A DNA stretch of 64,000 bases from Mariniphaga sp. (GCA_024636975.1 JAGXGA010000011.1:1-64000), one strand, 5' to 3'. Positions 43,974-64,000 are shown, counted from the first letter of the stretch. Notes: generated by a model not told the origin, from the sequence alone. Numbers and translations are program-made.

Positions 43974-44016
43974 CTGAAAAAAAATCAAGTATAAGGGAAG
44001 CTGGTAATCTGAACAA

Positions 44017-44053
44017 GGATGGCATCCACCCTAAGCGGCATGGATGCCATCCC
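44017..44053. repeat. GGATGGCATCC inverted element, copy 8
   Basis: A compact copy: GGATGGCATCCACCCT, then GCGGCATGGATGCCATCCC, with a short centre. Duplicated almost exactly at 44335-44372. Confidence 0.7.
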
Positions 44054-44114
44054 GGGCAGGGCACAAGATCGAAACCATACCTTCAATTAAAGGAATGCCT
44101 GGATCGGGAGACCG

Positions 44115-44142
44115 GGAGGCGCGATTTCCGAATCGCGCATTC
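44115..44142. repeat. Hairpin repeat, GGAGGCGCGATT type
   Basis: GCGCGATT and AATCGCGC pair across a TCCG loop, giving a stable stem. It is part of a longer 65-bp repeat beginning CCTTCAA, also present at 45501-45565 and 46972-47035. Confidence 0.65.
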
Positions 44143-44225
44143 TGTTTGGATTGATAGAGATTGATAGAGATTGATGGGGATGGGAAAAATTAGCCACAGA
44201 TTCACAGATTAGTTGCATGAAGGGT

Positions 44226-44283
44226 GGATGGCATCCCTGGTTGTTTAATGCATGAACCCGGAATCAAAATAGGGATGCCATCC
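44226..44283. repeat. GGATGGCATCC inverted element, copy 7
   Basis: Opens GGATGGCATCCC and closes AGGGATGCCATCC, with ATGAACCCGGAATCAAAA in the centre, very close to copy 3. Preceded by a CACAGATTCACAG unit. Confidence 0.7.
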
Positions 44284-44334
44284 TGTCCTGAAAAAAAAAA
44301 TCAAGTATAAGGGAAGCTGGTTATCTGATCTGAA

Positions 44335-44372
44335 GGATAGCATCCACCCTTAGCGGGCATGGATGCCATCCC
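44335..44372. repeat. GGATGGCATCC inverted element, copy 9
   Basis: GGATAGCATCCACCCT, then GCATGGATGCCATCCC, the second member of the internal duplication. An extra TGGAATCAAAATAGGGATG half follows directly. Confidence 0.65.
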
Positions 44373-44431
44373 TGGAATCAAAATAGGGATGCCATCATTA
44401 ATAATAATGGCAACATTATGATCATATAATT

Positions 44432-44827
44432 TTAAGTAATACAATTTAAAAGCTGTTTTAGTTTTTTGATCAATAAATCCTGATTAATGGGTTTTAAAAT
44501 GTAATCATTGAACCCTGCTTCCAGAATTTTGTGCTGTTCTTCTATAAGCATTAATGATGCAGTCTGCGCTATCATAGGAATATCAACATTAAATTCCCTG
44601 ATTTTGCAGGCTGTCTCTATACCGTTCATTCCGGGCATTCTGATATCCATAAGAATGAGGCTGATATCGGGATTTTCCAAAAGGGCCTGAATCGTATCTT
44701 CACCATTCCAGGTGTGTATAATTTCGGCTCCGGATTCTTTAAGAATATATTCCAGGAGGTAGAAACTATTTTCGTCATCTTCAGCAACCAGTATTTTTTG
44801 GCCTGCTAAATAGTTATCTGTTTTCAT
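44432..44827 (-). CDS. Single-domain response regulator (CheY-like receiver)
   Basis: A 131-aa receiver domain. Landmarks are ILVAEDDENSFYLLEYIL (acidic pocket), SLILMDIRMPGMNGIE (phospho-acceptor Asp), the switch threonine in MIAQTAS and the lysine in DYILKPINQDLL. The sequence resembles receivers found at the C-terminus of hybrid kinases, so it may be a stand-alone receiver that takes phosphate from a kinase elsewhere. No kinase is adjacent. No output domain. Confidence 0.9.
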   Translation of the reverse strand: MKTDNYLAGQKILVAEDDENSFYLLEYILKESGAEIIHTWNGEDTIQALLENPDISLILMDIRMPGMNGIETACKIREFNVDIPMIAQTASLMLIEEQHKILEAGFNDYILKPINQDLLIKKLKQLLNCIT

Positions 44828-45861
44828 ATGTCCGTTCCTTTATAATAATACTGTAAAGGTATATGCAAAATAAAAACCAAAAAGGTAATTTATTTATATA
44901 CAGACAATTACAGGCGTAATGAAAAGTGTTGCAGGGAGAAAGGGAGCCGGCAGTCACTTCAGACACTTTTTTATATATGTTCATTTAAATACAAGTTTCT
45001 GATTACCTTACGGTTACTCTGGTGGATCAAAAGAGGTTCTCAGGCTTTATTTTGAGTGATAAATAGAAATGCATTTTGTTTTTTACCAATAATAAAGAAC
45101 CTTTTCTGCAAAAGCATCAGCGATCTAACGAATTAATTAAAAACGATTTAAGCCTTTAACAAACTTTCAATTATTGAAAATTTCCACATAAATTGTGGTT
45201 AGTTGTAGAAAACGGTATCAATGAGAATCGTTTTTGGAAGCTGCACCCGTTTTCTAAATAGTATAGATTTTTTTTTCGCCACAGATTGCACAAATTTGCA
45301 CAGATTCTTTTCGTGAAATCCGTGTAATTAGTGGATAACTATCGGGTGGTGTGGTTTCCTGCCCGGCTGCTACCGTTCGGACAGGACTGCCCGGCTGATT
45401 CCGTTCGGACGGGTGAATCACGCATTCTGATAGCAGGGCAGAGAGATTGATTGAGATTGATAGAGATTGGTGGAGATTGAAAGAGATTGGAAAATCAAGG
45501 CCTTCAAATAAAGCAATTCCTGGATCGGGAGACCGGGTGGCACGAATTCCTTTCGCGCATTCTGTATTTCTGTTGTTTTACCATTCAGTTTTTCAATCCC
45601 GTGGGAAGGTAAAAGAGAAAGATTGTTGCAGTCCTTTCTTTTAATTGTCTGAACCTTGATTCACAGGATTACCTTGATTATCTTCTAATCATGGTCATCA
45701 GGTTAATCAAGAGAATCATGGTACAGACTTTCCTGGTCATCATGTTATTCAGGAAAATCGTGGTTCAGACATTTTCGTTTCGGGTAACTTGTTTTCCGAA
45801 TGGCATCCCGGACCAGACCAATCAACTTTTTCTATATTTGCCCTTTAGTTAAATTTAAAAT
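44828..45861. repeat. 1-kb intergenic region without a gene
   Basis: The ORF at 45447-45644 runs through repeat sequence and is rejected. Contents are GCCACAGATTGCACAAATTTGCACAGATT at 45280, a long hairpin repeat with two CGTTCGGAC(A/G)GG units (45344-45427), GAGATTGATTGAGATTGATAG units (45447-45492), a CCTGGATCGGGAGACCGGG repeat (45501-45565), and TCTGAACC / AATCATGGTCATCAGGTTAATC units (45650-45775). No RNA gene is recognised. Confidence 0.7.
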
Positions 45862-46332
45862 ATGGATAATGATGTTCTACATTTTAGTACTCTGGACGAT
45901 GGCTATGATTATTTCATAAACGACAGATGGAGAAAGAAATATCATTTCAGAATTTTTACGTTTCCTGTCCCATCGGGTATACTTTCAGAAGCTGTTGAGG
46001 TTATAGATGAATCATCAAAAAGAGTTCCCAGGAGATTTTCAGTTTTATCAGACTTTCATGCCAATACAGAACAGGCAGAATTACAGCTTAAAACTAAAAT
46101 AAAAAAAAGCATTAATCAGAGGCATTTAAAACGGGGGAAGCCGGAAATTTCAGAAGAAGATGTTATAAGGGGAACGATAGGTTATACCGGCTATGCCGAT
46201 ACAGCATTCGATTTGCAGTTTGAAATTGATGGCAGGAGAATCACGGTGGAACAATTTGTTAAAATGCTGGATGTTTACCAGGGGTTTAATTTCAAGCTAA
46301 AGATTTATGATCCGACTGATGATATGGACTAA
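45862..46332 (+). CDS. Hypothetical cytoplasmic protein
   Basis: A 156-aa soluble protein, unrecognised. It is rich in charged and aromatic residues (HFSTLDDGYDYFINDRWRKKYHFRIFTFPVPSG at the start). The middle is helical and lysine-rich (AELQLKTKIKKSINQRHLKRGK), and the end is VEQFVKMLDVYQGFNFKLKIYDPTDDMD. The TAA stop is followed in the same frame by 28 more codons that end in FEDPTEDND, much like this gene's own DPTDDMD ending. This could be an old partial duplication or a longer ancestral tail. A second small protein gene follows 105 bases later. Confidence 0.7.
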   Translation: MDNDVLHFSTLDDGYDYFINDRWRKKYHFRIFTFPVPSGILSEAVEVIDESSKRVPRRFSVLSDFHANTEQAELQLKTKIKKSINQRHLKRGKPEISEEDVIRGTIGYTGYADTAFDLQFEIDGRRITVEQFVKMLDVYQGFNFKLKIYDPTDDMD

Positions 46333-46437
46333 AACAGTGGTTTAAAAAAATTGAAGAAAAACATAACCAGTAAGCATAAATGGACTTCTTTTGAAGATCC
46401 AACAGAGGATAATGATTAAAATAATTGATTGTAATTG

Positions 46438-46860
46438 ATGCAAAAGATTTATGTAGATTTTATAGATGGCACAAAATATTTAGTTCCGGTAAATGCGGAA
46501 GAAATAGGGCCTGAAATGTATCTGATACTGGATGACGAAGAATATAAAAATAAAGATTCAAGTGAGCTGTTCGAGTTTTATCCCGGCGATATTGTAGAAG
46601 CAGAAGATACAGATGACCTGGATTTGGAATATCAGCATGTGGCTGTTTCATTAATTTCAGCTGGTGAAAATTCACTTGAAAGAAGATATTTAAGATTTAA
46701 ATTTTACAGTACCCAAAGATTAATGACTGTTAGTAAAGAAACAGCAGAAGAATATAAAGAAGTTATTGAACGTATTGTTGATGAAAAGAGAAAAGGTTTG
46801 TTCTTCTATAAAGGCATCACCGAAACTGTAGAATTCCTTTATGGCTTTGTGAAAAAATGA
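46438..46860 (+). CDS. Hypothetical acidic protein
   Basis: About 140 aa from the ATG at 46438; the track uses the TTG three bases earlier. It starts MQKIYVDFIDGTKYLVPVNAEEIG, with an acidic stretch (LDDEEYKNKDSSELFEFYPGDIVEAEDTDDLDLEY) and a helical C-terminus (TAEEYKEVIERIVDEKRKGLFFYKG). No membrane segment or known motif. It probably shares a transcript with the 156-aa gene upstream. No function assigned. Confidence 0.7.
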   Translation: MQKIYVDFIDGTKYLVPVNAEEIGPEMYLILDDEEYKNKDSSELFEFYPGDIVEAEDTDDLDLEYQHVAVSLISAGENSLERRYLRFKFYSTQRLMTVSKETAEEYKEVIERIVDEKRKGLFFYKGITETVEFLYGFVKK

Positions 46861-47362
46861 CCTTTGTAATTATGCTGATTCGGGTGTTAAAGAGGGGAGG
46901 GGTTATCTATTGATGAAAGGAATTAGCACAACTTTTTCTGACAGCGATGAAAGACAGCATCGGATGACATTCCTTCAAACAAAGAAATGCCTGGATCGGG
47001 ATACCGGGTGGTACGAATTTCTGTCACGCAAACTGATACCAGGGAAGAGGGGATATTTTCTTAATTGTCTGAACCTTGATTCATAGGACTATCTTGATTA
47101 CCCTGATTCCTTAAAATCATGGACATCATGTTAATCAAGCGAATCATGGTTCAGACTTTTATGGACATCATGTGAATCAGGAAAATCAGGGTTCAGACTT
47201 TCCTTTAATCCTGTCCATCAGGTTAATCAGGAAAATCGTGTTGTCCCGCAGGGCATCGGGATTAACAACTTCCGGTTAGTGTGTTATATTACCCATGCTC
47301 ATTTCATGCAATTAAAATTCTTTTCTTCAAATATACCGGGCATAACAAATGAGGCAGTGGGC
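46861..47362. repeat. Intergenic repeats
   Basis: A CCTGGATCGGGATACCGGG repeat lies at 46972-47035. Bases 47063-47240 hold five or so imperfect units of the TCTGAACC ... AATCATGG(A/T)CATCA(G/T)GTTAATCA family in alternating phase. No gene or RNA is evident. Confidence 0.7.
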
Positions 47363-49995: not shown

Positions 49996-50184
49996 ATGAA
50001 ATGTTCTGAACTATATCGACTTTTGAAGAAAGATGGCTGGTTTCCAATTTCACAAAAAGGGTCACATGTTAAATTGAAACATGATCATAAAGATGGTATA
50101 ATAATTTTTCCAAATCATGGAAGCCAGGAAGTCGGAAAAGGGCTTGAGAAAAAAATACTGAAGGATGCAGGAATAATATTGTAA
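49996..50184 (+). CDS. hicA: HicA-family toxin
   Basis: A 62-aa mRNA interferase toxin of the HicA type, with a double-stranded RNA-binding-like fold. The sequence has LYRLLKKDGWFPISQKGSHVKLKHD, with the catalytic histidine in GSHVKL, then IIIFPNHGSQEVGKGLEKKILKDAGI. It is followed ten bases later by its antitoxin gene, toxin first, as is usual for this family. The pair appears intact. Confidence 0.92.
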   Translation: MKCSELYRLLKKDGWFPISQKGSHVKLKHDHKDGIIIFPNHGSQEVGKGLEKKILKDAGIIL

Positions 50185-50194
50185 AACAGGAATT

Positions 50195-50590
50195 ATGAAA
50201 AAATATAAGAAAAAAGTAAAAATAATTGTAGAGAAAACAAAGACAGGATTTTCGGCTTATTCTGAAGAATATCCAATATTCACGACGGGAAGGACTATTC
50301 CTGAATTATTAAATAATGCACTCGAAGCTACTCAATTAAATTTTGAAAAGGATTTTGAAATTACACATGAAAATTTGAAATTTGAAATTGACTTTGCACA
50401 ATTTTTTCAATACTACAAAGTGCTGAATTCAAAATTTCTTGCAGAAAAAATTGGAATGAATCCAACTTTACTGTCTCAATATGTGCAAGGACATAAAAAA
50501 CCATCTGAAAGCCAAACTGAAAAGATATTAAGTGGAATTCATCAAATTGGACAAGAATTATCTGAAATGAATTTAATATATAGAAGTTAA
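50195..50590 (+). CDS. hicB: HicB-family antitoxin with HTH
   Basis: A 131-aa antitoxin. The N-terminal HicB fold is KVKIIVEKTKTGFSAYSEEYPIFTTGRTIPELLNNALEATQLNF, a partly degraded RNase-H-like domain that neutralises HicA. The C-terminal half is a helix-turn-helix (VLNSKFLAEKIGMNPTLLSQYVQGHKKPSESQTEKIL) for autoregulation of the operon. It completes the HicAB pair. Confidence 0.9.
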   Translation: MKKYKKKVKIIVEKTKTGFSAYSEEYPIFTTGRTIPELLNNALEATQLNFEKDFEITHENLKFEIDFAQFFQYYKVLNSKFLAEKIGMNPTLLSQYVQGHKKPSESQTEKILSGIHQIGQELSEMNLIYRS

Positions 50591-52428: not shown

Positions 52429-53487
52429 ATGGTAAAAAATTATAGACAGCTAACAGAAAGTATTCGAGGCAGAATTAATCCTGAAAATTTTGAATTAAGA
52501 AAATCCTTTTCAGATGAGCTTGCAACAATTTCCTACAGTGAGGTACTGACTTACATTCGAATTGCGATGAAAGGTGTTGAACCAGAATACACGCAAAGAA
52601 GTAAAGATGCAGGAGAAAGAGTAAAAGAGCATTTATCGAAAAGGCTATCTGACGTTGTTTTTAAATATCAAGGTTCTGTAATGACTGACACTCATATTAA
52701 GGGTTATAGCGACATTGACCTACTTACTATTTGTGATAAATTTTATACATATGATGCTCCCAAAATCAAGCAGATACTTGAATCAGTAGAGCAGAAAAAT
52801 AGATATAGACAGACTTCTATTGAAAAAATGGTTAAGGAAGTTAACACAAGCTCTTATCAAGGAAATGCACTTCAAGATTTAAGAAAAATAAGAATTGATA
52901 GTGAATCAATTTTAGAAGATGTTTATGATATATGCGACACAACAAAACCAAAATCAATTAAAATTAAAAATCAAAGCCTAAATCGTGAAGTTGACGTAGT
53001 TATTGCCAATTGGTATGATGATGTAACTTCAGTTATCAATGACAAAGGTGAATATCGTGGAATTCAAGTTTATAATAAAGAAACTCATTCTAAAGGAAAT
53101 GCAGATTTTCCTTTTCTAAGCATTAAACGAATTAACGAAAAAAGTGCAGATACTATTGGTAGATTAAAAAAAATGATTCGCTTTTTGAAAAACACAAAAG
53201 CTAACTCAAATCAAGAAATCGACCTAAGTAGTTTTGATATTAATGCTGTTTGTTATGACATTGAAGTTGTGAAATATCAAACACTTTCATTTTATGAACT
53301 CGTTCCTGTAATCTATAATCAGCTAAAAGAAATCTGCACCAATCAAACTAAGGCAGATAGCATCATATCGGTGGATGGAAGAGAGTATATTTTTAAATAC
53401 AATTCAAGGAAACTTGAAAATCTGAAATTGTTGCTAGCTGAAGTTGAAGGAATATTTGTTGACCTTAAAAATACACTTGGCTTATGA
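52429..53487 (+). CDS. CBASS CD-NTase (cyclic oligonucleotide synthase)
   Basis: A 352-aa nucleotidyltransferase of the CD-NTase (SMODS) type, which makes a cyclic nucleotide signal on phage infection. Catalytic residues are visible: G82-S83 in YQGSVMTDT, the metal-binding pair D95 and D97 in YSDIDLL, and the third aspartate D189 in REVDVVIAN. Length fits the family. The next gene overlaps by four bases (ATGA), so the two are co-translated and form a minimal type I CBASS operon. Bacteroidota enzymes paired with TIR-STING are known to make c-di-GMP, which is the likely product here (inference). The region is clearly AT-richer than neighbouring genes, suggesting acquisition. Confidence 0.88.
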   Translation: MVKNYRQLTESIRGRINPENFELRKSFSDELATISYSEVLTYIRIAMKGVEPEYTQRSKDAGERVKEHLSKRLSDVVFKYQGSVMTDTHIKGYSDIDLLTICDKFYTYDAPKIKQILESVEQKNRYRQTSIEKMVKEVNTSSYQGNALQDLRKIRIDSESILEDVYDICDTTKPKSIKIKNQSLNREVDVVIANWYDDVTSVINDKGEYRGIQVYNKETHSKGNADFPFLSIKRINEKSADTIGRLKKMIRFLKNTKANSNQEIDLSSFDINAVCYDIEVVKYQTLSFYELVPVIYNQLKEICTNQTKADSIISVDGREYIFKYNSRKLENLKLLLAEVEGIFVDLKNTLGL

Positions 53488-54422
53488 TTAAAAAGAGACT
53501 TTTTATAGGTTCATCCTCCGAAGAACTAAAATTAGCAGAGAAAGCAAAAGCAATTCTATCCGCAGACTTTGATGTAACCATATGGAATGAAAAAGTTTGG
53601 GATTCTTCGGTTTTTAAGATAAATCAAAATTTTCTGTCTGATTTACTTAAAGCAACTTTACAGTTTGATTTTGGAATTTTATTAGGCACTAATGACGACA
53701 AAGTCGAATTTAGGGGACAAGTAATGTTGCAACCAAGAGATAACGTGTTATTTGAATTAGGTTTGTTTACAGGTCGTTTAGGAACTTCAAAATGTGCGTT
53801 TCTAGTTGACAAAGAAATTAAACTTCTTTCTGATTTTGGTGGACTCTCCTTGGCAGTTTTTGATAATGGCAATGATAGCAGTTTTGAAAATGCGGTTAAG
53901 CAAGTCAAAGACCTTTTCATTTCAAGTTCAGATGATGAAATCAACTTTTTTCCTTCTGCTACATTAGCTTCAGTTTATTTGGAAAATCTTATTGTTCCAA
54001 CTTGTCGCTATTTAATTGAAAATAATGGATATGAACTTGAAGGTGTGAAATACAAAAAGTGCAAACTAAATATTATTGTTCCTGACAAAATCAATGATGA
54101 CGTTAATCTTCAATTCGAGAGATTAAAATCTTCTATTGACACTAAAAACGTTTCTTTCAAATATGCAGGCAGACCGAGAAATATTAGCATTGACACTCAA
54201 ATTAAAGAAGAAACACTAGTCTTTATAGACTTTCCGACAATAATCACAGGAATTAATTATGCTATTTCAAACCTACTACCCAACGACTTTAATAAACTGA
54301 GTCCAGATTATGACTCAATTCTTGAAAGAGAATTAAGACGATTTATTACAACATTAAAAAAGTTATTGATAAAACACGGATTTGATGAAATGGTGGTTGT
54401 AAAAAGAGAGAAAGATTTATGA
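53484..54422 (+). CDS. cap12: TIR-STING effector of CBASS
   Basis: A 312-aa two-domain effector. Residues 1-150 are a CAP12/Pycsar-type TIR domain (KKRLFIGSSSEELKLAEKAKAIL, and RDNVLFELGLFTGRLG with a candidate catalytic glutamate, E91), expected to destroy NAD+. Residues 158-312 match prokaryotic STING: YLENLIVPTCRYLIENNGYE, LNIIVPDKINDD, YAGRPRNISID and VFIDFPTIITGINYAIS. The arginines at 230/232 and D249 occupy positions like those that read the guanine bases of c-di-GMP in known bacterial STINGs. Signal binding should drive filament formation and NAD+ loss, killing the infected cell. The domain calls are by pattern and are confident for TIR, good for STING. Confidence 0.85.
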   Translation: MIKKRLFIGSSSEELKLAEKAKAILSADFDVTIWNEKVWDSSVFKINQNFLSDLLKATLQFDFGILLGTNDDKVEFRGQVMLQPRDNVLFELGLFTGRLGTSKCAFLVDKEIKLLSDFGGLSLAVFDNGNDSSFENAVKQVKDLFISSSDDEINFFPSATLASVYLENLIVPTCRYLIENNGYELEGVKYKKCKLNIIVPDKINDDVNLQFERLKSSIDTKNVSFKYAGRPRNISIDTQIKEETLVFIDFPTIITGINYAISNLLPNDFNKLSPDYDSILERELRRFITTLKKLLIKHGFDEMVVVKREKDL

Positions 54423-54690: not shown

Positions 54691-57081
54691 ATGGTAAATC
54701 CTGAATATATTAGTCAACTTGTTATTCGTTCAAAAACAGAACTAAAAAAGCATTATAATCTAGAAGATATTGGATTTGACGACTTTGAAATTATCAACTT
54801 CTACCTAATTAATAAAACTCTAAACCAAGACAAATATAATTTGGCAATTAATGTTCCGCAAAGAGATGATAAAAGGGACTTCTACATCCCTGCAATATTA
54901 TCAGTTGCAGCGACCTTATTTTTTCAAAACTACATTGACGATAAAACAAAATACAAGAACGGTGATATTTTACAAAAAGACGGAAAAAGATACAGGTACG
55001 ACAAAAAGAACATTGATGGCACTCATACTTTATCTGGAAATGGATGTACATTACCAAGTGTAAAAGATAAATCATTAAAAAAGTATATTGTAACAACAGC
55101 AAACCTTACTGACAGAAAAGTCAAAACAAAATTTAATCATTATAAAAATCTTTTCAAACTCATATTTGGAGAAGATTATGTCCCCTCAAAATTCACATAT
55201 AAAACTGCAATTATTCTTGAAAAGAAAGATTTTTTAGAAACCCTTAATGACGAGAAGATACCAGAGATTGAATTGAAAAAGGCAATCCCTTTAAAATGGG
55301 TGACTAAAAAAGGGATTGAAAAAGATGAATCGGACTATATTCCAATTGAACCTATGATTTATCTTTTGCCAGATTATGAGACTTTTAAAGAGTTGGTTTT
55401 TGATGAAATAGAGAATTTAGATTCGGTAATTTTTATAGGGAAAAACAAGTACGAACCTTTTATCACTCAAATAAAGCGTGATTTACGGAAAGGCAATATC
55501 CCTAAAGCAATTTTTATCGGAAGTAATAATATTGAAAACTTTGATAATCTTAAAACTTGGAAATGGACTCAGTCAGAGACAAACTATTTTAACAACATTG
55601 AAGACAGTTCTATTGAATTGATAACCGTTAAGCCTGAAAGTTTTCTGAATAATATTGAAAAATTTGAGAAGCGGATTTTGGAAATTGATAATGAATACTG
55701 TTTCAATATTAAAAATCTTTTCAGACTTAAAAAGATACTTTATTCAACTGTTTTGCCGAGCAAATCCCTTCGCCTTGCAAGTCAGCTAGAATACATTAAT
55801 CATATTTATGAAAAAGAGATTAAAAGTATCGTTTCTGAATCCTTTTTAGAAATTAATGAGAACCCAGAAAAGATTATAAATGAACTAACAGTATTAGCGA
55901 AAGAAATAATAAACAGTATTTCAACTGAAAAATTCAATCAGTTAATTCGGTTAGAAAAGACAGATATTTTAATTGTTTCAGAAAGATTTAAGGATGCTTG
56001 GCAAGAAGACCTTAATAGTAAAGAATTCGTTAGCACTTTTGGGAAGACAAAGCTGCTTAGTTTCAAAGAATTCAAGCAGCAAATCGGTAAATTCAAATCA
56101 AGAAAAAATATATCAATACTTACAATATTTGGATTCTCAGATATTCCAACTGATATTTTGCGAATTATTTCCCAAACATCCAACAATTTTTCATTAGTCT
56201 TATATCCAGAAGAAAATCAACTTGTTGAGAAGCTTTTAAATAAATGTCAGAATGAATCAAATCAGGAATTCGGGTCAACAGAACGATATATTTTGAGCAA
56301 GATAGAATACCCAATAGTTGAAAAGGATGAGGATATCTCCGGTATCATTTTAAAATTCTACGAACAAGAAAGCTTTGAAAATAAATCATATCATTATGAG
56401 TATAGTGAAAATATAGAATATGAAATCACTTCTATTGGTGGTGAAAAAACCATTTTGGAAGGTAGCAAGACAATACTACTTTCAAAAGATAATTTAAAAA
56501 GAAAAGAGAAAGTTTCAAATCTTATTATTGGAGATAATATCAGGATTTACGAGAATACTTCAAAGGAAAGATTATTTCAAATTGCAACAGAGAATGACAA
56601 GAAAGGAAAACTTATTGAAATCATTGAAACTTCCAAAATATGGAAGCAATGTCTTAAAAATTATTTTGTAAAAAAAGAATCTACAAACTTTGGTTTTGAA
56701 GAATTGTTAGCTGAACTTGTTGTTAATGGTGCTAAAATTCAAATCATTACAGTAAAAAAATGGCTCAGCCTAGAAGATAAGGATTTATTTCCATCACAAA
56801 CACTGAACTTAATAGCAATTAAGAAGACCATTGACTGTGATGTCTTTAATAATAGTTTCGATGATATTAAACGTTGCAAAAAAGCATACAGAAGTATAAT
56901 GATAGCCTTGGGAAGAGACCTAAGCGATGAAATAATGGATTACATAATTTCTGACAAAAAAGTTATTGGTAAAATATTAGAACAATTTAGCGAAGAACAT
57001 ATTGCTAAATTTATTGATGCAAGTGCGCCATTACAAACAATTGAAAAAATTCAAATACTTGAAAATTGTGAACATGAGTAA
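54691..57081 (+). CDS. DrmE-like protein of a DISARM-type operon
   Basis: A 796-aa protein that I do not recognise by motif. I call it DrmE-like because it is the first gene of an operon with drmA and drmB, has about the size of DrmE in class 2 DISARM, and DrmE has no other recognised domain. Visible features are an N-terminal helical segment, a central region with FIGKNKYEPFITQIKRDLRKG and ILTIFGFSDIPTDILRIISQTSNNFSLVLYP (a Rossmann-like or helicase-like core is possible), and a C-terminal helical part. No membrane segment. Its stop overlaps the drmA start by eight bases (ATGAGTAA). Strongly AT-rich. Confidence 0.6.
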   Translation: MVNPEYISQLVIRSKTELKKHYNLEDIGFDDFEIINFYLINKTLNQDKYNLAINVPQRDDKRDFYIPAILSVAATLFFQNYIDDKTKYKNGDILQKDGKRYRYDKKNIDGTHTLSGNGCTLPSVKDKSLKKYIVTTANLTDRKVKTKFNHYKNLFKLIFGEDYVPSKFTYKTAIILEKKDFLETLNDEKIPEIELKKAIPLKWVTKKGIEKDESDYIPIEPMIYLLPDYETFKELVFDEIENLDSVIFIGKNKYEPFITQIKRDLRKGNIPKAIFIGSNNIENFDNLKTWKWTQSETNYFNNIEDSSIELITVKPESFLNNIEKFEKRILEIDNEYCFNIKNLFRLKKILYSTVLPSKSLRLASQLEYINHIYEKEIKSIVSESFLEINENPEKIINELTVLAKEIINSISTEKFNQLIRLEKTDILIVSERFKDAWQEDLNSKEFVSTFGKTKLLSFKEFKQQIGKFKSRKNISILTIFGFSDIPTDILRIISQTSNNFSLVLYPEENQLVEKLLNKCQNESNQEFGSTERYILSKIEYPIVEKDEDISGIILKFYEQESFENKSYHYEYSENIEYEITSIGGEKTILEGSKTILLSKDNLKRKEKVSNLIIGDNIRIYENTSKERLFQIATENDKKGKLIEIIETSKIWKQCLKNYFVKKESTNFGFEELLAELVVNGAKIQIITVKKWLSLEDKDLFPSQTLNLIAIKKTIDCDVFNNSFDDIKRCKKAYRSIMIALGRDLSDEIMDYIISDKKVIGKILEQFSEEHIAKFIDASAPLQTIEKIQILENCEHE

Positions 57082-60000
57082 TATAGATGATAATTTAGCA
57101 AGGCAAAAATTTCAGGACAGAATAACCAAAGGTATGTTAGGTCCAGGTTCTGATACTTGGGGAGTAGCCGACAATGAAGAAATCATCTCAGATTATCCCT
57201 TAATAAGATATTTTACAGGAGTTTTATTTCCAGACAAAACTAATCCTGATACACAGTTAGACAGCGATACTGCGGATGTTGAAAATGAAAGTGAAGAGAA
57301 TGAAGAACTGGAAGAATCCAATATTAAAAAAGAAGTTTTAGATATTATAGAAGAGAATAGTGTTTCAACAAAGAAGGAAAATGAAGAAGATTTGACACTT
57401 AGCCAAAATAGCTTTTTCCCAACAAATATTGGTCTTACAATTTGTCTTACCGATTCAGTTGAAAACGTAAATGTTGATTTTTCATTTGGACTTTATTATC
57501 AACCAACCTTTAAAGAAAAAAAAATCAAAATTAATAAAGCTGGGTATGATTCATTTTTTGAAGATAAAATTCCTTACCAATTACCATTTAAAGATAAATT
57601 GAAATTTGATGGTGAGTTTATGTTTCTTGAAAATGATTTGGATGGTCATTCTGGAGGACGTGATAAAATCCGTAGTGGGGATTATCAAAGTTTTGACGAA
57701 TTCAGAAACAGTAAAAACTTAGTCGATACTTCTGCTAAGTATTACATTGGTTATCTTGAAAAATTAATTAGCAGGGCATGGAAAAGAAAGCATTTTTTGC
57801 GAAAACTTACGATTAAAATTGAACCGACTTCTGAACCAATTACAATTGAACTTCCGGATAAATTACATAAAGAACTAAAGGTTGGCTACAATGTAAAAAC
57901 ATACTTTCATCAAGGTAGGAAATATGTAAAGATACAACTCGTTAATATTTCAGTTCCCCATCCTAAAAATAAGTTCTCTAATAAAAATGAGAAACTAAAT
58001 TCAAAATGTTTATTTCAAGCAGATATATCTGTTACGTCAAATAATATTTTGCCATATAAAACGCAGTATGAGCGATTTCCTTTCGACAATGAAGCCGAAA
58101 GATTAAATTTCATTTACCGTAAGATTAAATCATTCGGAATAGGACATAATTGTGCCGTGGATTGGGAAGGTGAAAAACCGACCATAATTAAGACGAGCTT
58201 TTTACCTCATGCTGATATTAAAGATGTAAAAAACGATTTTGACGATGCTAATGACACAAAACTTAATGATGCTTTAAATATTAAGAATCTATCAACTTTT
58301 GGTTTACCCAAAAACAAGGTTATTGAAAGCTTGAAATATTTCATTTCACTGTATGAACAATGGATAATAAATCAAAAATTACAAACTAAAAGTCTTGATT
58401 TTAACGATACTGAAATAAGTTTAGCTATTATTTCAAAACAAACCGAAAACCTAAACAGGTTAAAAGAAAGCATCGTATTGCTTGAAGATGATAATATCTT
58501 CAAAGCCTTTCAAATGGCAAATACAGCAATGTATATCCAAATGGTAACTTCAAATGATAAAGATTTTGGGAAAGACGAAAAGGAATTATCGGAACTTACC
58601 CATAATGTTGATTACAATAGTCTTGATTTTTTTAGGAAATACAATGCAGAGCAAAGAAAAATTGAAGGCAAAATAAAGTTTATTCTAAGATATAGACCAT
58701 TTCAATTAGCGTTTATGCTTCTCAGTATTGATGGAGTTGTAAATAATCAAAGTAAGTCGAGAAAAGAAATTGTTGATTTGATATGGTTTCCCACAGGTGG
58801 TGGAAAAACAGAAGCATATCTTGCCGTTACAGCTCTTGCAATTATTTGGAGACGTTTAAATAATGAAATTGGATATGAAGGAACTACTGTAATAATGCGT
58901 TATACTTTACGGTTGTTAACAGCTCAGCAATTTGAACGGGCATCTCGATTAATTTCCGCACTTGAATTTCTGAGGCAACAACCTGAATTTAATGCTGTTT
59001 TACGAACAGAACCAATTTCAATCGGCCTTTGGGTTGGAATGGCTTCAACTCCAAATAAACTTGAAGTTGCAAAAAAGAAAATTGATGAAATTGAAAAAGA
59101 ATGTGACCGAAAAAATGGGAATCCGAAAGAAAAAAATATATTTCAAATAAGTGCCTGCCCTTGGTGTGGAACAAAACTTATTTCGAAAAATGAAGGTAAA
59201 TGGGATTATGGTTTTGATTATACCCGAACCGATTTAAAGCTTAACTGCCTCAATAAAAATTGCGCATTTCATAAAAAGCTTCCAATACAAGTTGTTGATG
59301 AGCTTTTATACGAAAATCCACCAACTCTCCTATTTGGAACGGTCGACAAATTTGCAATGTTAGCTTGGCAAGAAAAAGCATTTATGTTTTTCAATACTCA
59401 TGACGATAGTAAACTACCACCCGATTTAATTATTCAAGATGAACTTCACCTATTGAGTGGTCCTTTAGGTTCTATAACTGGCATTTACGAAAGTGTAATA
59501 GAATTACTTTCCACAAAAAATGGGCATGCTCCTAAAATAATTGCGTCAACGGCGACAACTCGAAATACAGATTCGCAAATAAAAAAATTGTATGGGAATA
59601 GAAACGTAAATGTGTTTCCACCAACAGGGATTACGCAAGAAGACAGCTTTTTCGCGAAGGAAGATAATAGTAAAAGCAAGAGAAGATATTTGGGTTTTAT
59701 GCCTACTGGGAAAACTGCAATTGACACACAGTTACAAATACTTGCTCATTTATTGGTTGCTCGCTTAGAAGTTTATCTTGATAACAAAACCAAAGGCTCT
59801 GCAAATAATTATTGGAGCCTCGTTTCTTATTACAACAGCTTACGTGATGTTGGGCGTACAAATAATAAAGTTGGGGATGAAATAACAACTTATACTGGAT
59901 TCTTACAAAATAGACTTTCATCTATTTTTCCTGGTTCTATCGATGACTACAGGTATAATTTCTTAGGAATTTACTCAAGAACAAAAGAACTTACAAGTAG

Positions 60001-60730
60001 AATTCAAAGTGAAAGAATTAAGGAAACGCTGAGTGAAATTGAAAGAGAATTTTCAGAAAAAAGCTTTTCAACCGACGAAACAGGTAGGAAATATTTGAAT
60101 GATGTTGTCGATATAATTCTTGCAACAAATATGATTTCGGTTGGAATTGATATAAGTCGGTTGAATATCATGTTGTTGAATGGAATGCCAAAGAATATTG
60201 CAGAATACATTCAGGCATCAAGTCGTGTTGGTAGAAGCACAAAGGGACTTGCAATAACACTTTTTGACCCGAATAGGGCAAGAGAAAAATCTTATTTTGA
60301 ACATTTTAAAACCTTCCATCAAACTTTTTACAAAGCTGTAGAGCCAATAAGTGTTACTCCATTTACTGAGAATACAATCAATAAAATGCTATCAAGTATG
60401 CTTGTTGCCTTTATACGTCAAAACTACCCGGGAGAGTTAAACCGAAAGAATCAAGCTGGCTATTTTACTAAAGATAAAATTCAACCTTTATTAGCATTTA
60501 TAAAAAACCGTTTCATAAATCAAAAAGATGATTGTGAATTGTTTGAGAGAGAGATAAAAAGATTAGCAGATGAATGGGAGGAAAAGATAAGTCAAGTCAA
60601 TTTACAAAAGTATGATGAGCTTTTATTGAAACCAGGTGAACATGATGGAGATATTGAAGATTGGATTTTAATGCAATCTATGCGAGAAGTTGACACAAAT
60701 ACCTACATCCAAATTAAAGGAAACAAATAG
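57074..60730 (+). CDS. drmA: DrmA-like DISARM helicase
   Basis: About 1218 aa from the ATG at 57074 (MSNIDDNLARQKFQDRITKG); the track start at 57002 lies within the upstream gene. An SF2-type helicase: Walker A WFPTGGGKTEAYL at about 571-583, DELHLLSGP (DExH box) near 788, ASTATTRN (motif III) and, in the second lobe, MISVGIDISRLNIML and QASSRVGRS (motif VI). A zinc-binding insert (CPWCGTKL and CLNKNCAFH) lies between the first motifs. This is the architecture of DrmA. The first 560 residues are a long unassigned region. Two bases separate its stop from drmB. Confidence 0.85.
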   Translation: MSNIDDNLARQKFQDRITKGMLGPGSDTWGVADNEEIISDYPLIRYFTGVLFPDKTNPDTQLDSDTADVENESEENEELEESNIKKEVLDIIEENSVSTKKENEEDLTLSQNSFFPTNIGLTICLTDSVENVNVDFSFGLYYQPTFKEKKIKINKAGYDSFFEDKIPYQLPFKDKLKFDGEFMFLENDLDGHSGGRDKIRSGDYQSFDEFRNSKNLVDTSAKYYIGYLEKLISRAWKRKHFLRKLTIKIEPTSEPITIELPDKLHKELKVGYNVKTYFHQGRKYVKIQLVNISVPHPKNKFSNKNEKLNSKCLFQADISVTSNNILPYKTQYERFPFDNEAERLNFIYRKIKSFGIGHNCAVDWEGEKPTIIKTSFLPHADIKDVKNDFDDANDTKLNDALNIKNLSTFGLPKNKVIESLKYFISLYEQWIINQKLQTKSLDFNDTEISLAIISKQTENLNRLKESIVLLEDDNIFKAFQMANTAMYIQMVTSNDKDFGKDEKELSELTHNVDYNSLDFFRKYNAEQRKIEGKIKFILRYRPFQLAFMLLSIDGVVNNQSKSRKEIVDLIWFPTGGGKTEAYLAVTALAIIWRRLNNEIGYEGTTVIMRYTLRLLTAQQFERASRLISALEFLRQQPEFNAVLRTEPISIGLWVGMASTPNKLEVAKKKIDEIEKECDRKNGNPKEKNIFQISACPWCGTKLISKNEGKWDYGFDYTRTDLKLNCLNKNCAFHKKLPIQVVDELLYENPPTLLFGTVDKFAMLAWQEKAFMFFNTHDDSKLPPDLIIQDELHLLSGPLGSITGIYESVIELLSTKNGHAPKIIASTATTRNTDSQIKKLYGNRNVNVFPPTGITQEDSFFAKEDNSKSKRRYLGFMPTGKTAIDTQLQILAHLLVARLEVYLDNKTKGSANNYWSLVSYYNSLRDVGRTNNKVGDEITTYTGFLQNRLSSIFPGSIDDYRYNFLGIYSRTKELTSRIQSERIKETLSEIEREFSEKSFSTDETGRKYLNDVVDIILATNMISVGIDISRLNIMLLNGMPKNIAEYIQASSRVGRSTKGLAITLFDPNRAREKSYFEHFKTFHQTFYKAVEPISVTPFTENTINKMLSSMLVAFIRQNYPGELNRKNQAGYFTKDKIQPLLAFIKNRFINQKDDCELFEREIKRLADEWEEKISQVNLQKYDELLLKPGEHDGDIEDWILMQSMREVDTNTYIQIKGNK

Positions 60731-60732
60731 TT

Positions 60733-62667
60733 ATGCCACATACAGAGATACAATCACGCAAAGTTATTAGCTCCTACGGAGGTGTTGGTTCCATTATTGA
60801 AACTCCAAATGGGGCAATGATGATAGAAAATTTTGACCAATGGTCTTTCTTTAAAGCAATAATAGAAGGTAATCTTGAAAAATTAGATTATACGATTGAA
60901 GACAATCGGCTTTTAAACAGATTAAAGAACGAAAATGGATTTCCAAGATTATCTGCTTTTTTAAGAATTCCATCAAATGTTGCAAACCCAAACAATCAAA
61001 GTGCACCCTTACACCCTTATCGGTTTATTAGTTCAAAATATTTTCCAGAATGGTTTTATTGCAATAAATGTGAGCGTTTTCACAATATCTCTGATTGGTG
61101 GGAGGGCTGGAAAAGAACTCTTTCAAAATACAAAGAGCCAAATGATAAAATTAGAGATTTATTCTATAACTCGCCAAGATGTTTTTATTGCTATGACAGT
61201 GCAAAGACCAAACAAAAGAGAGATAAAAAACGTAAGAAATTTTATTATGAATTAGAGCAAGTTCGATTTATACTAACCTCTCCGAAAGGCGATATTTATG
61301 ATATTCCTTGGGATAAATGGAATATTGCAGTAAAAGTAAGTCAGGATAATGAATCAAGGCTTACAATAAGAATGGATGATGACGAACTGTGCTGTGAAAA
61401 TCAACAGCTAAAATATTACAAATCAACTAAGTTCTCAGATTTGTCTGGTATTAGAATCTCATGCAACAGTTGTGGAAAATCAAATACATTGGCTGGTTTA
61501 TTTAAATTAGAAATGATTGTAAATGAATCAACTAAACTAAACCGAAAGATAGTTATTAGAACCAGTAACAGTGTTTATTATCCAATTTTAGTAAGTAGTA
61601 TTTATCTGCCTGCGCAATTAGAAATTAGCGGAAGTGATTCTGACAAAATAGATAAGTGGTTGGAAAAAGGAAAGTCAATAGACTTCATTGTTGAAGTTTT
61701 TGAGGACGAATATTCTGAAGCATCAATTTTAAAATACATCAATGGAAATGTTGAAAATATTTTTGAACCTGAAGAAGAATATCGTTTAAAAGAATACAAT
61801 TTCATTACATTTCCTGAGCGTATTTCGTACCCAGAAAAAGATTCAGAAAAAAGAAATCTGATTTTTAAGAGACAAAAAATATCTTCTCTTGAAAAATATG
61901 GAATTTCGAATCTTACACAAATTAAAAGACTTAAATTAACGACAGTTCAAGTTGCATATACTCGTCAAGAACCACTAAGCCAAAACGAGTTTCTACAAGG
62001 TGTTGATGGAGATTCAAAAATTAAAGCAAAATATACTTCAAAATGGGCAAATCAAACCGAATATCTACCTGCTGTTGAAAGTTTTGGTGAAGGCATTTTT
62101 ATTAATCTTAATAATAATAAAATCGAAACATGGTTAGATGAATCTTTTAAAAGTAAAGGGTTTGCCCAGCGAATATTAACGATTAAAGATAATATCCAAA
62201 ATCACGATTATATTGATAAAGGTAAATTCAAAAGTGATAGGCATTTGGGTAAATTCATTTTAATTCATACACTATCTCATATTCTGATTAAAGAATTTGA
62301 ATTTCTTGTCGGTTACCCTGCAACGTCTTTAAATGAAAGACTTTTTATTGATGAAATGGAAATGTCAGGAATGTTAATTTATACAGTTGCTGGTGCAGAG
62401 GGAAGTTTCGGTGGTCTTGTTTCACAAGGGACTGAGGAAATTTTTGAAAGAATCATAAAGTCTGCTCTTTTTAGGGCCACGGATTGTGCTTCTGACCCAA
62501 TTTGTTTTCACACCATGGATGGCCAAGGAGTTGGTGGATTAAATATGGCTGCTTGTTATTCATGTTCGTTACTTCCTGAGACTTCATGCGAAGAATTTAA
62601 TAGTTTTCTTGACAGAGGATTGTTGATAGATATTGATAATGGATTTTTTAAAGATGACATCGTGTAA
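60733..62667 (+). CDS. drmB: DrmB-like DUF1998 protein
   Basis: A 644-aa protein of the DrmB (DUF1998) family. The N-terminus begins HTEIQSRKVISSYGGVGSIIET, as in other DrmB proteins. Cysteine pairs at about 110 (CNKCERFH), 152 (CFYCYDS) and 240 (CNSCGKS) suggest zinc ribbons. The DUF1998 core is at 510-644: ILIHTLSHILIKEFEFLVGYPATSLNERLFI, AGAEGSFGGLVSQG, and the cysteine-rich CASDPICF and CYSCSLLPETSCEEF. DrmA and DrmB form the core complex of DISARM, in which DrmB supports DNA binding and unloading of the trigger loop of DrmA. No methylase follows. Confidence 0.86.
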   Translation: MPHTEIQSRKVISSYGGVGSIIETPNGAMMIENFDQWSFFKAIIEGNLEKLDYTIEDNRLLNRLKNENGFPRLSAFLRIPSNVANPNNQSAPLHPYRFISSKYFPEWFYCNKCERFHNISDWWEGWKRTLSKYKEPNDKIRDLFYNSPRCFYCYDSAKTKQKRDKKRKKFYYELEQVRFILTSPKGDIYDIPWDKWNIAVKVSQDNESRLTIRMDDDELCCENQQLKYYKSTKFSDLSGIRISCNSCGKSNTLAGLFKLEMIVNESTKLNRKIVIRTSNSVYYPILVSSIYLPAQLEISGSDSDKIDKWLEKGKSIDFIVEVFEDEYSEASILKYINGNVENIFEPEEEYRLKEYNFITFPERISYPEKDSEKRNLIFKRQKISSLEKYGISNLTQIKRLKLTTVQVAYTRQEPLSQNEFLQGVDGDSKIKAKYTSKWANQTEYLPAVESFGEGIFINLNNNKIETWLDESFKSKGFAQRILTIKDNIQNHDYIDKGKFKSDRHLGKFILIHTLSHILIKEFEFLVGYPATSLNERLFIDEMEMSGMLIYTVAGAEGSFGGLVSQGTEEIFERIIKSALFRATDCASDPICFHTMDGQGVGGLNMAACYSCSLLPETSCEEFNSFLDRGLLIDIDNGFFKDDIV

Positions 62668-63117
62668 GAAGCCAACCCGCACAGCCAAGCAAAATTGCAA
62701 TTCGCACAAGCCATCGTTCAGACTCAAAATTGCAATAAAGCTTGTCTGTTTGTCAACGCTTTTTTCTCCGACCCGAAAAACAAAATAGGGATAGTACTAA
62801 ATTGAAAATTAAGGAGTTTTTTTAAAAGAAAGTAAGCATTCGGCTATCCACGTCCAATAATATCCAATAATTTTTATAGTTAATTGCAGACAAAGATTGA
62901 ATTTTCAATAAAATTTGAGATAAATGAAGGGATTTGTCCAAAGAACTCCAACTTTTTTTGGAATCAGTCGGACACGGGTTTGCACTGCTGTGCTTTCTTC
63001 CGGTTAATTGTCTGAACCATGAATCACAAGATTACCATGATTTACCTGATTTCTTCTAATCATGGACATCGGGTAAATGTCTGAACCACGATTCACAGGA
63101 TTTTCATGATTACCAGA
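62668..63117. other. Spacer between the defence operon and the IS element
   Basis: No gene: where class 2 DISARM operons continue with drmC and a methylase, this one ends. The stretch contains GCACAGCCAAGC and GCACAAGCC words similar to those at 54600-54680, and a TCTGAACCATGAATCACA / ATTACC repeat cluster at 63005-63115 where the IS begins. Confidence 0.65.
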
Positions 63118-63286
63118 TGCTTACTGATTATTCCGGACAAATTGTACCACCTATTCCGGGGTAAAGTGTACCACCTTTTTCAGGATGAACTTGTTTTACA
63201 AAAATGCATATTTTATTAATTGATATTTTATTTTGCTTAAAATATATTTTGACATGATGTCATGCTTTCGCAGTGACTTTTCTTTC

Positions 63287-63351
63287 CCCGAGGAGCAGTT
63301 GAGAACGGAAGGAGGGCGTAGCCCGACTGGAGTTCTCAACTGCTCCTCGGG
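63287..63351 (+). terminator. Large hairpin at the istB 3' end
   Basis: CCCGAGGAGCAGTTGAGAAC (63287-63306) pairs perfectly over 20 bases with 63332-63351, and the loop contains a second stem (GGGCGTAGCCC). The istB stop lies inside the right arm. On the plus strand it is followed by GCCTTTGTTTTTTC, so it looks like a terminator that stops transcripts entering the IS from the defence operon side. Confidence 0.6.
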
Positions 63352-64000
63352 CCTTTGTTTTTTCTTAATGATTCGCCTTTCAGGTCTATCCTGTGAGCAT
63401 TACCGGCAAGTCTATCCATGATGGCATCTGCCAGGGTAGGTTCTGCTATGAACTCGTACCATTTGGCAATCGGAAGTTGAGAAGTAATAATTACTGATTT
63501 TTTACCGTACCTATCTTCCAGTATCTGAAGAATGGCCAACCGGGTAATCGCATCAAAAGGATGCAACCCAAAATCATCCAGTATCAGTACATGTGTTTTT
63601 TCGATTTGGTTCAGCAGTTTAATAAAAGTACCATCCAGCTTTGTCTGGGAAACTTTTTCAAGAAAGCGGTTCATTCCGAAGTATAATACCCTATATCCCA
63701 AAGAACAAGCCTGACGTCCGAGTGCACATGCAATATAACTCTTGCCGCAGCCTGTTGCTCCGGTAATAAGAATGTTTTCCGCATTTTCAATAAACCGGCA
63801 GTCAGCCAATGACATAAGTTGGTCATTGGTGAGATTACGAGCAGCATTACAATAGATCTGTTCCAGTAGAGCATTATACCGAAGTTTACTGACCTTTAAA
63901 TACATTGTTGTTTTCTGGTTAACTCTGTACTGTCGTTCAGCTTCAGCAAGTCTGCCGATCAGTACATCTGATGTGAGTTGTTCATGAACAGGCATAGCCA
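63336..64000 (-). CDS. istB: IstB-like IS21 helper ATPase, partial
   Basis: The C-terminal 220 or so residues of the IS21 transposition helper ATPase; the gene continues past the window edge in an open frame. AAA+ features are the Walker A GATGCGKSYIACALG, Walker B HVLILDDFGLHPFD, and ITSQLPIAKWYEFIAEPTLADAIMDRLAGNAHRIDLKGESLR, with the sensor and arginine-finger region. It cooperates with the IstA transposase, expected upstream and outside the window. The frame is intact. Confidence 0.93.
   Translation of the reverse strand, partial: AMPVHEQLTSDVLIGRLAEAERQYRVNQKTTMYLKVSKLRYNALLEQIYCNAARNLTNDQLMSLADCRFIENAENILITGATGCGKSYIACALGRQACSLGYRVLYFGMNRFLEKVSQTKLDGTFIKLLNQIEKTHVLILDDFGLHPFDAITRLAILQILEDRYGKKSVIITSQLPIAKWYEFIAEPTLADAIMDRLAGNAHRIDLKGESLRKNKGPRSS

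Follow-up and report, generated by a model that had tools for sequence, protein, structure and literature searches.

Described DISARM systems and the Mariniphaga operon

Class 2 of the defence island system associated with restriction-modification (DISARM) is made up of DrmE, DrmA, DrmB, DrmC and the methylase DrmMII, and class 1 combines DrmA and DrmB with DrmD and the methylase DrmMI. The DrmAB complex from Serratia picks 5'-overhang DNA by means of a trigger loop, and DrmC is dispensable in the systems tested (PMC9142583). A stretch of 64,000 nucleotides from Mariniphaga sp. (GCA_024636975.1, JAGXGA010000011.1:1-64000), which is called the window throughout, carries at positions 54691-62667 a single compact plus-strand operon of three intact open reading frames (ORFs): a drmE-like gene, drmA and drmB. 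The profile and homologue matches support its assignment as a DISARM core with DrmE, as in class 2, that lacks a methylase and DrmC. On balance, we favour the reading that it represents a stable methylase- and DrmC-less lineage of class 2 DISARM, with self-protection based on DNA structure, and not a broken system.

The operon resembles class 2 DISARM in having homologues of DrmE, DrmA and DrmB in the same order and in one transcriptional direction, with the ATPase motifs of DrmA and the cysteine set of DrmB retained. It differs in the absence of DrmMII and DrmC, two of the five genes required by the PADLOC definition of type II DISARM (PMC9252829), and in its DrmE, since the clade members described below are too divergent for PADLOC and the window copy is too divergent for any profile. 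Compared with class 1 DISARM and the solved Serratia DrmAB (PDB 7s9v and 7s9w), DrmA and DrmB can be aligned over most of their length, and the trigger-loop position and a base-contacting valine are kept; DrmD and DrmMI are lacking, and DrmE is present instead.

Part of the DISARM-like diversity has already been seen, as Bell et al. reported many uncharacterised DISARM-like classes together with a DISARM-like cassette linked to McrBC (PMC12458937, PMC11090510). That cassette consists of a YprA-type helicase and a DUF1998 gene near McrBC, and can be compared with one composite operon discussed below, but the window and most members of its clade have no McrBC; in the text of PMC11090510 that was searched, neither DrmE nor a methylase-less clade is described. 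Druantia III (DruH-DruE) also couples a YprA-type helicase with a large, fast-evolving presumed sensor and has no methylase (PMC13192584), but DruE is itself a helicase-nuclease, and DruH has no shown kinship to DrmE. ARMADA shares a YprA-family helicase of the defence branch, but two features that set it apart are absent here. No description of a methylase-less DrmE-DrmA-DrmB clade was found in the part of the literature searched, which included few subscription papers. Being built from DISARM parts, the window system is best called a new DISARM variant.

DrmA and DrmB

The drmA gene (57074-60730, plus strand) encodes a superfamily 2 (SF2) helicase of the YprA type, 1218 aa long when counted from an ATG, although the open frame reaches an upstream TTG at 57002. 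The protein matches PADLOC DrmA at 3.5e-189 and the solved Serratia DrmA (7s9v) at 8e-129, and a profile of the clade matches the same structure at 1e-199. Its score against NCBIfam NF038325 DrmAS (845.8 bits) is below the equivalog cut-off of 950, which marks it as divergent. The initial annotation had described an SF2 helicase with an internal zinc insert, and this is what was found: the ATPase motifs TGGGKT and DELH are intact, and the Zn-binding cysteines C694, C697, C724 and C729 of the insert are invariant in the eight clade members aligned (8/8).

The drmB gene (60733-62667, plus strand) encodes a 644-aa protein that matches NF038324 DrmB_fam (307.9 bits, cut-off 240), PADLOC DrmB (1e-63) and Pfam MZB/DUF1998, in agreement with its earlier description as a DUF1998 protein. 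With the clade profile, the solved DrmB (7s9v_B) is matched at 1.5e-48, and cysteines 585, 591, 608, 611 and 619 are invariant in eight members. The Dpd and Druantia alternatives are far weaker for the helicase (DpdJ 4e-7, DruE 1e-4), and DUF1998 is encoded by its own gene, not fused to the helicase as in Dpd and Druantia. Together these matches support the prediction that the helicase is DrmA and the DUF1998 protein DrmB. Elsewhere (G226, L020 9100-14064), a natural fusion places DrmA and DrmB matches in one ORF of 1654 aa; the ORF after it has an ATPase-like motif.

A divergent DrmE

The first gene of the operon (54691-57081, plus strand) encodes a 796-aa protein without any match of its own in searches of PADLOC, Pfam and NCBIfam profiles, and its identity comes from collinear homologues. 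In Mariniphaga sp. KA03 (locus L004, identical to L006), a 787-aa protein in the same operon position is 35% identical to it and scores 92 bits against NF038316 DrmE_fam (cut-off 80) over residues 27-754. The homologues in L005 and L007 reach 116.7 and 101.7 bits against the same profile, both above the cut-off, and those in L004, L005, L029 and L034 pass the cut-off of Pfam PF24957 DrmE_C. As the window protein is 34-38% identical, over its full length, to homologues that pass these profiles, its assignment as a divergent DrmE is supported. Thus, of the three proteins that had been likened to DISARM components, DrmA and DrmB match their profiles directly, and the third is reached through its relatives.

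In each of the 45 pairs compared, DrmE is the subunit with the lowest conservation, its mean identity being 27% versus 49% and 46% for the other two. Walker A and (N/D)PPY motifs are absent from all of the DrmE-like proteins examined, and the HKD motif is absent from the clade members. The fastest-varying subunit, having no detectable catalytic motif, may by analogy be a sensor or a loader; DruH, the proposed sensor of Druantia III, was reported with the same fast-evolving pattern (PMC13192584).

For two AlphaFold models of DrmE (mean pLDDT 61 and 65), the best Foldseek matches were SF2 helicases, at E about 1e-6 and with probabilities of up to 1.00. When the DrmE family was compared by hhalign with DrmA, Mfd, a DEAD-box helicase and a UvrD helicase, no match was obtained, so the resemblance comes from Foldseek and two low-confidence models, and the dead-helicase fold should be taken as a lead and not as a finding. 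A sequence search of the PDB with the DrmE alignment gave no match, and scanning viral contigs with the DrmE-like protein revealed no relative. G323 and G421, genomes from different families, have drmE split into two ORFs in loci at a contig end (L018 11086-13058 and L027 3203-5670); the two ORFs share 4 bases, the break falls near residue 308 of the family profile, and the arrangement hints at a two-domain protein.

Recurrence of the cassette in Bacteroidota

In the window, the drmE-like gene and drmA overlap by 8 bases (57074-57081) and drmA is separated from drmB by 2 bases, so the tightly packed plus-strand operon of the initial annotation agrees with the ORF coordinates. The drmE-drmA-drmB cassette occurs in the same order, with overlapping or near-abutting junctions, in at least ten other Bacteroidota loci that have unrelated flanks and no drmC; the same three genes, order and tight junctions in so many loci indicate that the recurrence is not due to chance. 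These sequences group in a single clade of the DrmA tree (support 94/96), a Hymenobacter plasmid copy included, within which DrmA identity falls to about 37%. The sister group (L010-L012) has two loci with a 5-methylcytosine (5mC) methylase upstream. These two loci (L010 12439-18313 and L011 12210-18239) consist of the 5mC methylase, a second gene, a protein of 829-834 aa at the DrmE position, DrmA and DrmB; in L010 the second gene is a NERD-helicase and the protein at the DrmE position has no DrmE profile match.

Bare cassettes with differing flanks are found in L004, L005, L026, L034, L035 and L029 (a complete plasmid); the genomes with a bare cassette include G130, G584 and G705. The KA03 cassette (L004) adjoins mfd, that of Bacteroidales SMBSF39 sits between response-regulator genes, L034 lies beside a metal ABC transporter and L035 beside a radical-SAM gene, and Haliscomenobacter hydrossis has a bare cassette on the complete plasmid pHALHY02.

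Three explanations had been offered for the missing genes: a methylation-independent variant, a methylase elsewhere in the genome, or a truncated system that had lost its tail near an insertion sequence (IS). The last one would mean that a class 2 DISARM lost its methylase and drmC beside an IS21 insertion. In line with the earlier description, drmB is followed by a spacer and an IS21-type helper ATPase (63336-63998, minus strand; ORF translation, called IstB-like by reading, without a profile), and the IS and the contig end lie 0.7-1.4 kb downstream. However, the three ORFs are intact, and relatives with 42-58% identical DrmA stop at the same gene, with unrelated and uninterrupted genes downstream, including on a complete plasmid; nor is there a 5mC methylase anywhere in the assembly. 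Truncation is therefore disfavoured, and we regard it as very improbable.

The spread of the cassette bears on whether it serves defence at all. YprA helicases include repair enzymes such as MrfA (PMC12458937), and the operon could encode a complex of the YprA type that works in DNA repair with the help of an accessory protein. This is highly improbable, as the matches are to the defence-branch DrmA and DrmB, accompanied by a separate DUF1998 gene and DrmE, and the distribution is typical of defence genes: DrmE relatives were found sporadically, in about 1% of Bacteroidota genomes (even draws) and in one of three congeners searched, and a copy is carried on a plasmid.

Some copies of the cassette adjoin other defence genes. 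In Psychroflexus planctonicus (L007), a restriction-modification (R-M) gene of the MmeI type lies 84 bases downstream, and on the Hymenobacter plasmid (L030) the cassette is preceded, at a distance of 125 bases, by a type I R-M operon. In G116, a composite operon on one strand (L036 434-7974 with L017 6437-14420) encodes an N6/N4 methylase, a 5mC methylase, a McrB-like AAA protein, a McrC-like protein assigned by reading only, a prokaryotic Argonaute (pAgo) and DrmE-DrmA-DrmB. One explanation is that the cassette is a module which adds DNA processing to varying neighbours, such as McrBC-pAgo, R-M or the cyclic-oligonucleotide-based antiphage signalling system (CBASS) that adjoins it in the window, and is not a stand-alone defence; the reported McrBC-associated DISARM-like cassette (PMC11090510) would fit this idea. 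Since several copies lie among housekeeping genes without any defence partner (L004, L034 and L035), we judge it quite unlikely.

Methylases and nucleases

Neither a methylase nor a gene of the phospholipase D (PLD) type was found in the cassette, as initially noted. The search for PF00145 (5mC methylase) found none in the operon or in the whole host assembly, which is 95% complete, and gave no match in G130, G323 and G421. A linked 5mC methylase, that is, one within about 11 kb, is present at one of 11 clade loci versus 12 of 15 assessable other DrmA loci (Fisher p=0.001; three further loci, on short contigs, did not enter the count), and 5mC methylases are absent genome-wide from four of eight clade genomes versus none of 15 others (p=0.008), with both p values indicative only because the loci are related by descent. 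The sole clade locus with a linked 5mC methylase is the composite operon with McrBC and pAgo (G116). The host assembly has no obvious DrmC; its PLD matches fall in ORFs measuring 460, 494 and 983 aa that belong to other contigs. A family scan of 71 flanking ORFs revealed no recurrent methylase or nuclease partner among the 25 families listed.

The idea of a methylase elsewhere in the genome therefore fails for 5mC in this assembly and stands as a possibility for N6-adenine enzymes. A distributed DISARM might use a host N6-adenine methylase of a type I or type IIG R-M system, or another resident enzyme, to provide the self mark in trans. HsdM-like and Eco57I-type genes are indeed present on other host contigs (N6_Mtase and Eco57I profile searches of the contig of the window gave no match), the R-M genes next to the Psychroflexus and Hymenobacter cassettes would be candidates, and the methylase of class 1 DISARM is an adenine enzyme (PMC9142583). 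However, there is no consistent partner, as the nearest methylase, where there is one, varies, and the vicinity of most clade loci has none, and such methylases occur in nearly every genome, so their presence weighs little. We consider methylation in trans unlikely, and the methylation-independent variant is the best supported of the three options.

Proposed mechanism of self-avoidance

Because the cassette usually comes without a methylase, this lineage probably distinguishes self and non-self through the shape of the DNA. DrmA and DrmB would form an autoinhibited helicase, as known from Serratia, in which an acidic linker resembling the trigger loop would block intact double-stranded host DNA. 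A 5' single-stranded overhang on incoming or replicating phage DNA would displace the linker, and ATP-driven translocation would then block phage replication, whether or not a host nuclease takes part. Self-protection would thus depend on DNA structure and not on a methyl mark. DrmE would serve as the sensor or loading partner, possibly with a dead SF2-helicase fold.

The alignments are compatible with such a linker. Residues 34-151 of the clade profile align to Serratia DrmA 155-269 (7s9v chain A), covering its trigger loop (176-232); the relatives measured have acidic linkers of 59-67 residues at this position, and the window DrmA has a similar acidic low-complexity stretch there (about residues 56-112, approximately 57240-57410, plus strand). 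The base-contacting V1296 of Serratia corresponds to the V of the C-terminal SMREV motif in the window DrmA and is mostly I in relatives. Loss of this methylation-sensing residue in the methylase-less members was considered and rejected, as these members retain V/I, and relatives that do have a methylase can carry I as well.

Several observations weigh against the structure-based reading. The proposed methylation-sensing contact is still V in the window and I/V in the relatives, which gives no visible sign that the sensor has been lost. Every clade genome tested holds N6-adenine methylases somewhere, and three clade loci adjoin R-M or methylase genes (L007, MmeI type; L030, type I; L017/L036, 5mC with McrBC). 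The contig stops within the IS, so the downstream flank of the window copy itself is unread. Finally, the DrmE models are poor, with TM-scores of 0.1-0.2, which leaves the helicase-fold idea weak.

A bolder proposal, which we put forward tentatively and would not yet bet on, is that DrmEAB is a complete, self-sufficient and mark-free restriction machine, in which a dead SF2-type DrmE senses phage DNA ends or loads them for DrmAB and self-protection depends entirely on structure, and that methylation is an add-on of DISARM and not its foundation.

Neighbourhood of the operon

A complete CBASS pair, a CD-NTase with a Cap12 TIR-STING protein (52429-54422, plus strand), ends 269 bases upstream of the drmE-like gene and constitutes a separate known system. 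It matches PADLOC Cyclase (1e-157), NF050171 Cap12 (518.7 bits, cut-off 450), and the Pfam prok_STING and CAP12 TIR families; its adjacency to the cassette is not kept in relatives. On the other side, the contig ends at 64101, 101 bases beyond the window, and the assembly contains one full copy of the IS21 element.

A search for repeats or recombination sites bounding the cassette gave just weak similarities of 19-20 bases (52386/54447), together with dispersed repeats that are unrelated. These dispersed repeats of 40-90 bases (TTAATTGTCTGAACC...), at window positions 44000-47250 and 63000-63120, are common to an intergenic block (45-47 kb) and the spacer adjoining IS21. Promoter and terminator scans performed no better than on shuffled sequences, and an Rfam search of the window gave no match. 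At 49996-50590 there is a possible HicA toxin (62 aa) with a HicB-like antitoxin, by reading; a Pfam search of the 131-aa antitoxin candidate gave no match.

Implications

This lineage would go unnoticed under standard definitions that demand DrmC and a methylase, and its DrmE escapes the PADLOC models; DISARM cores in Bacteroidota are therefore likely to be undercounted. How DISARM avoids self is unsettled, as a methyl mark and DNA structure have both been proposed. The clade offers a ready-made test of this question: its core has been long retained, usually without a linked 5mC methylase and DrmC, and it takes just three genes to transfer it to a methylase-null laboratory strain.

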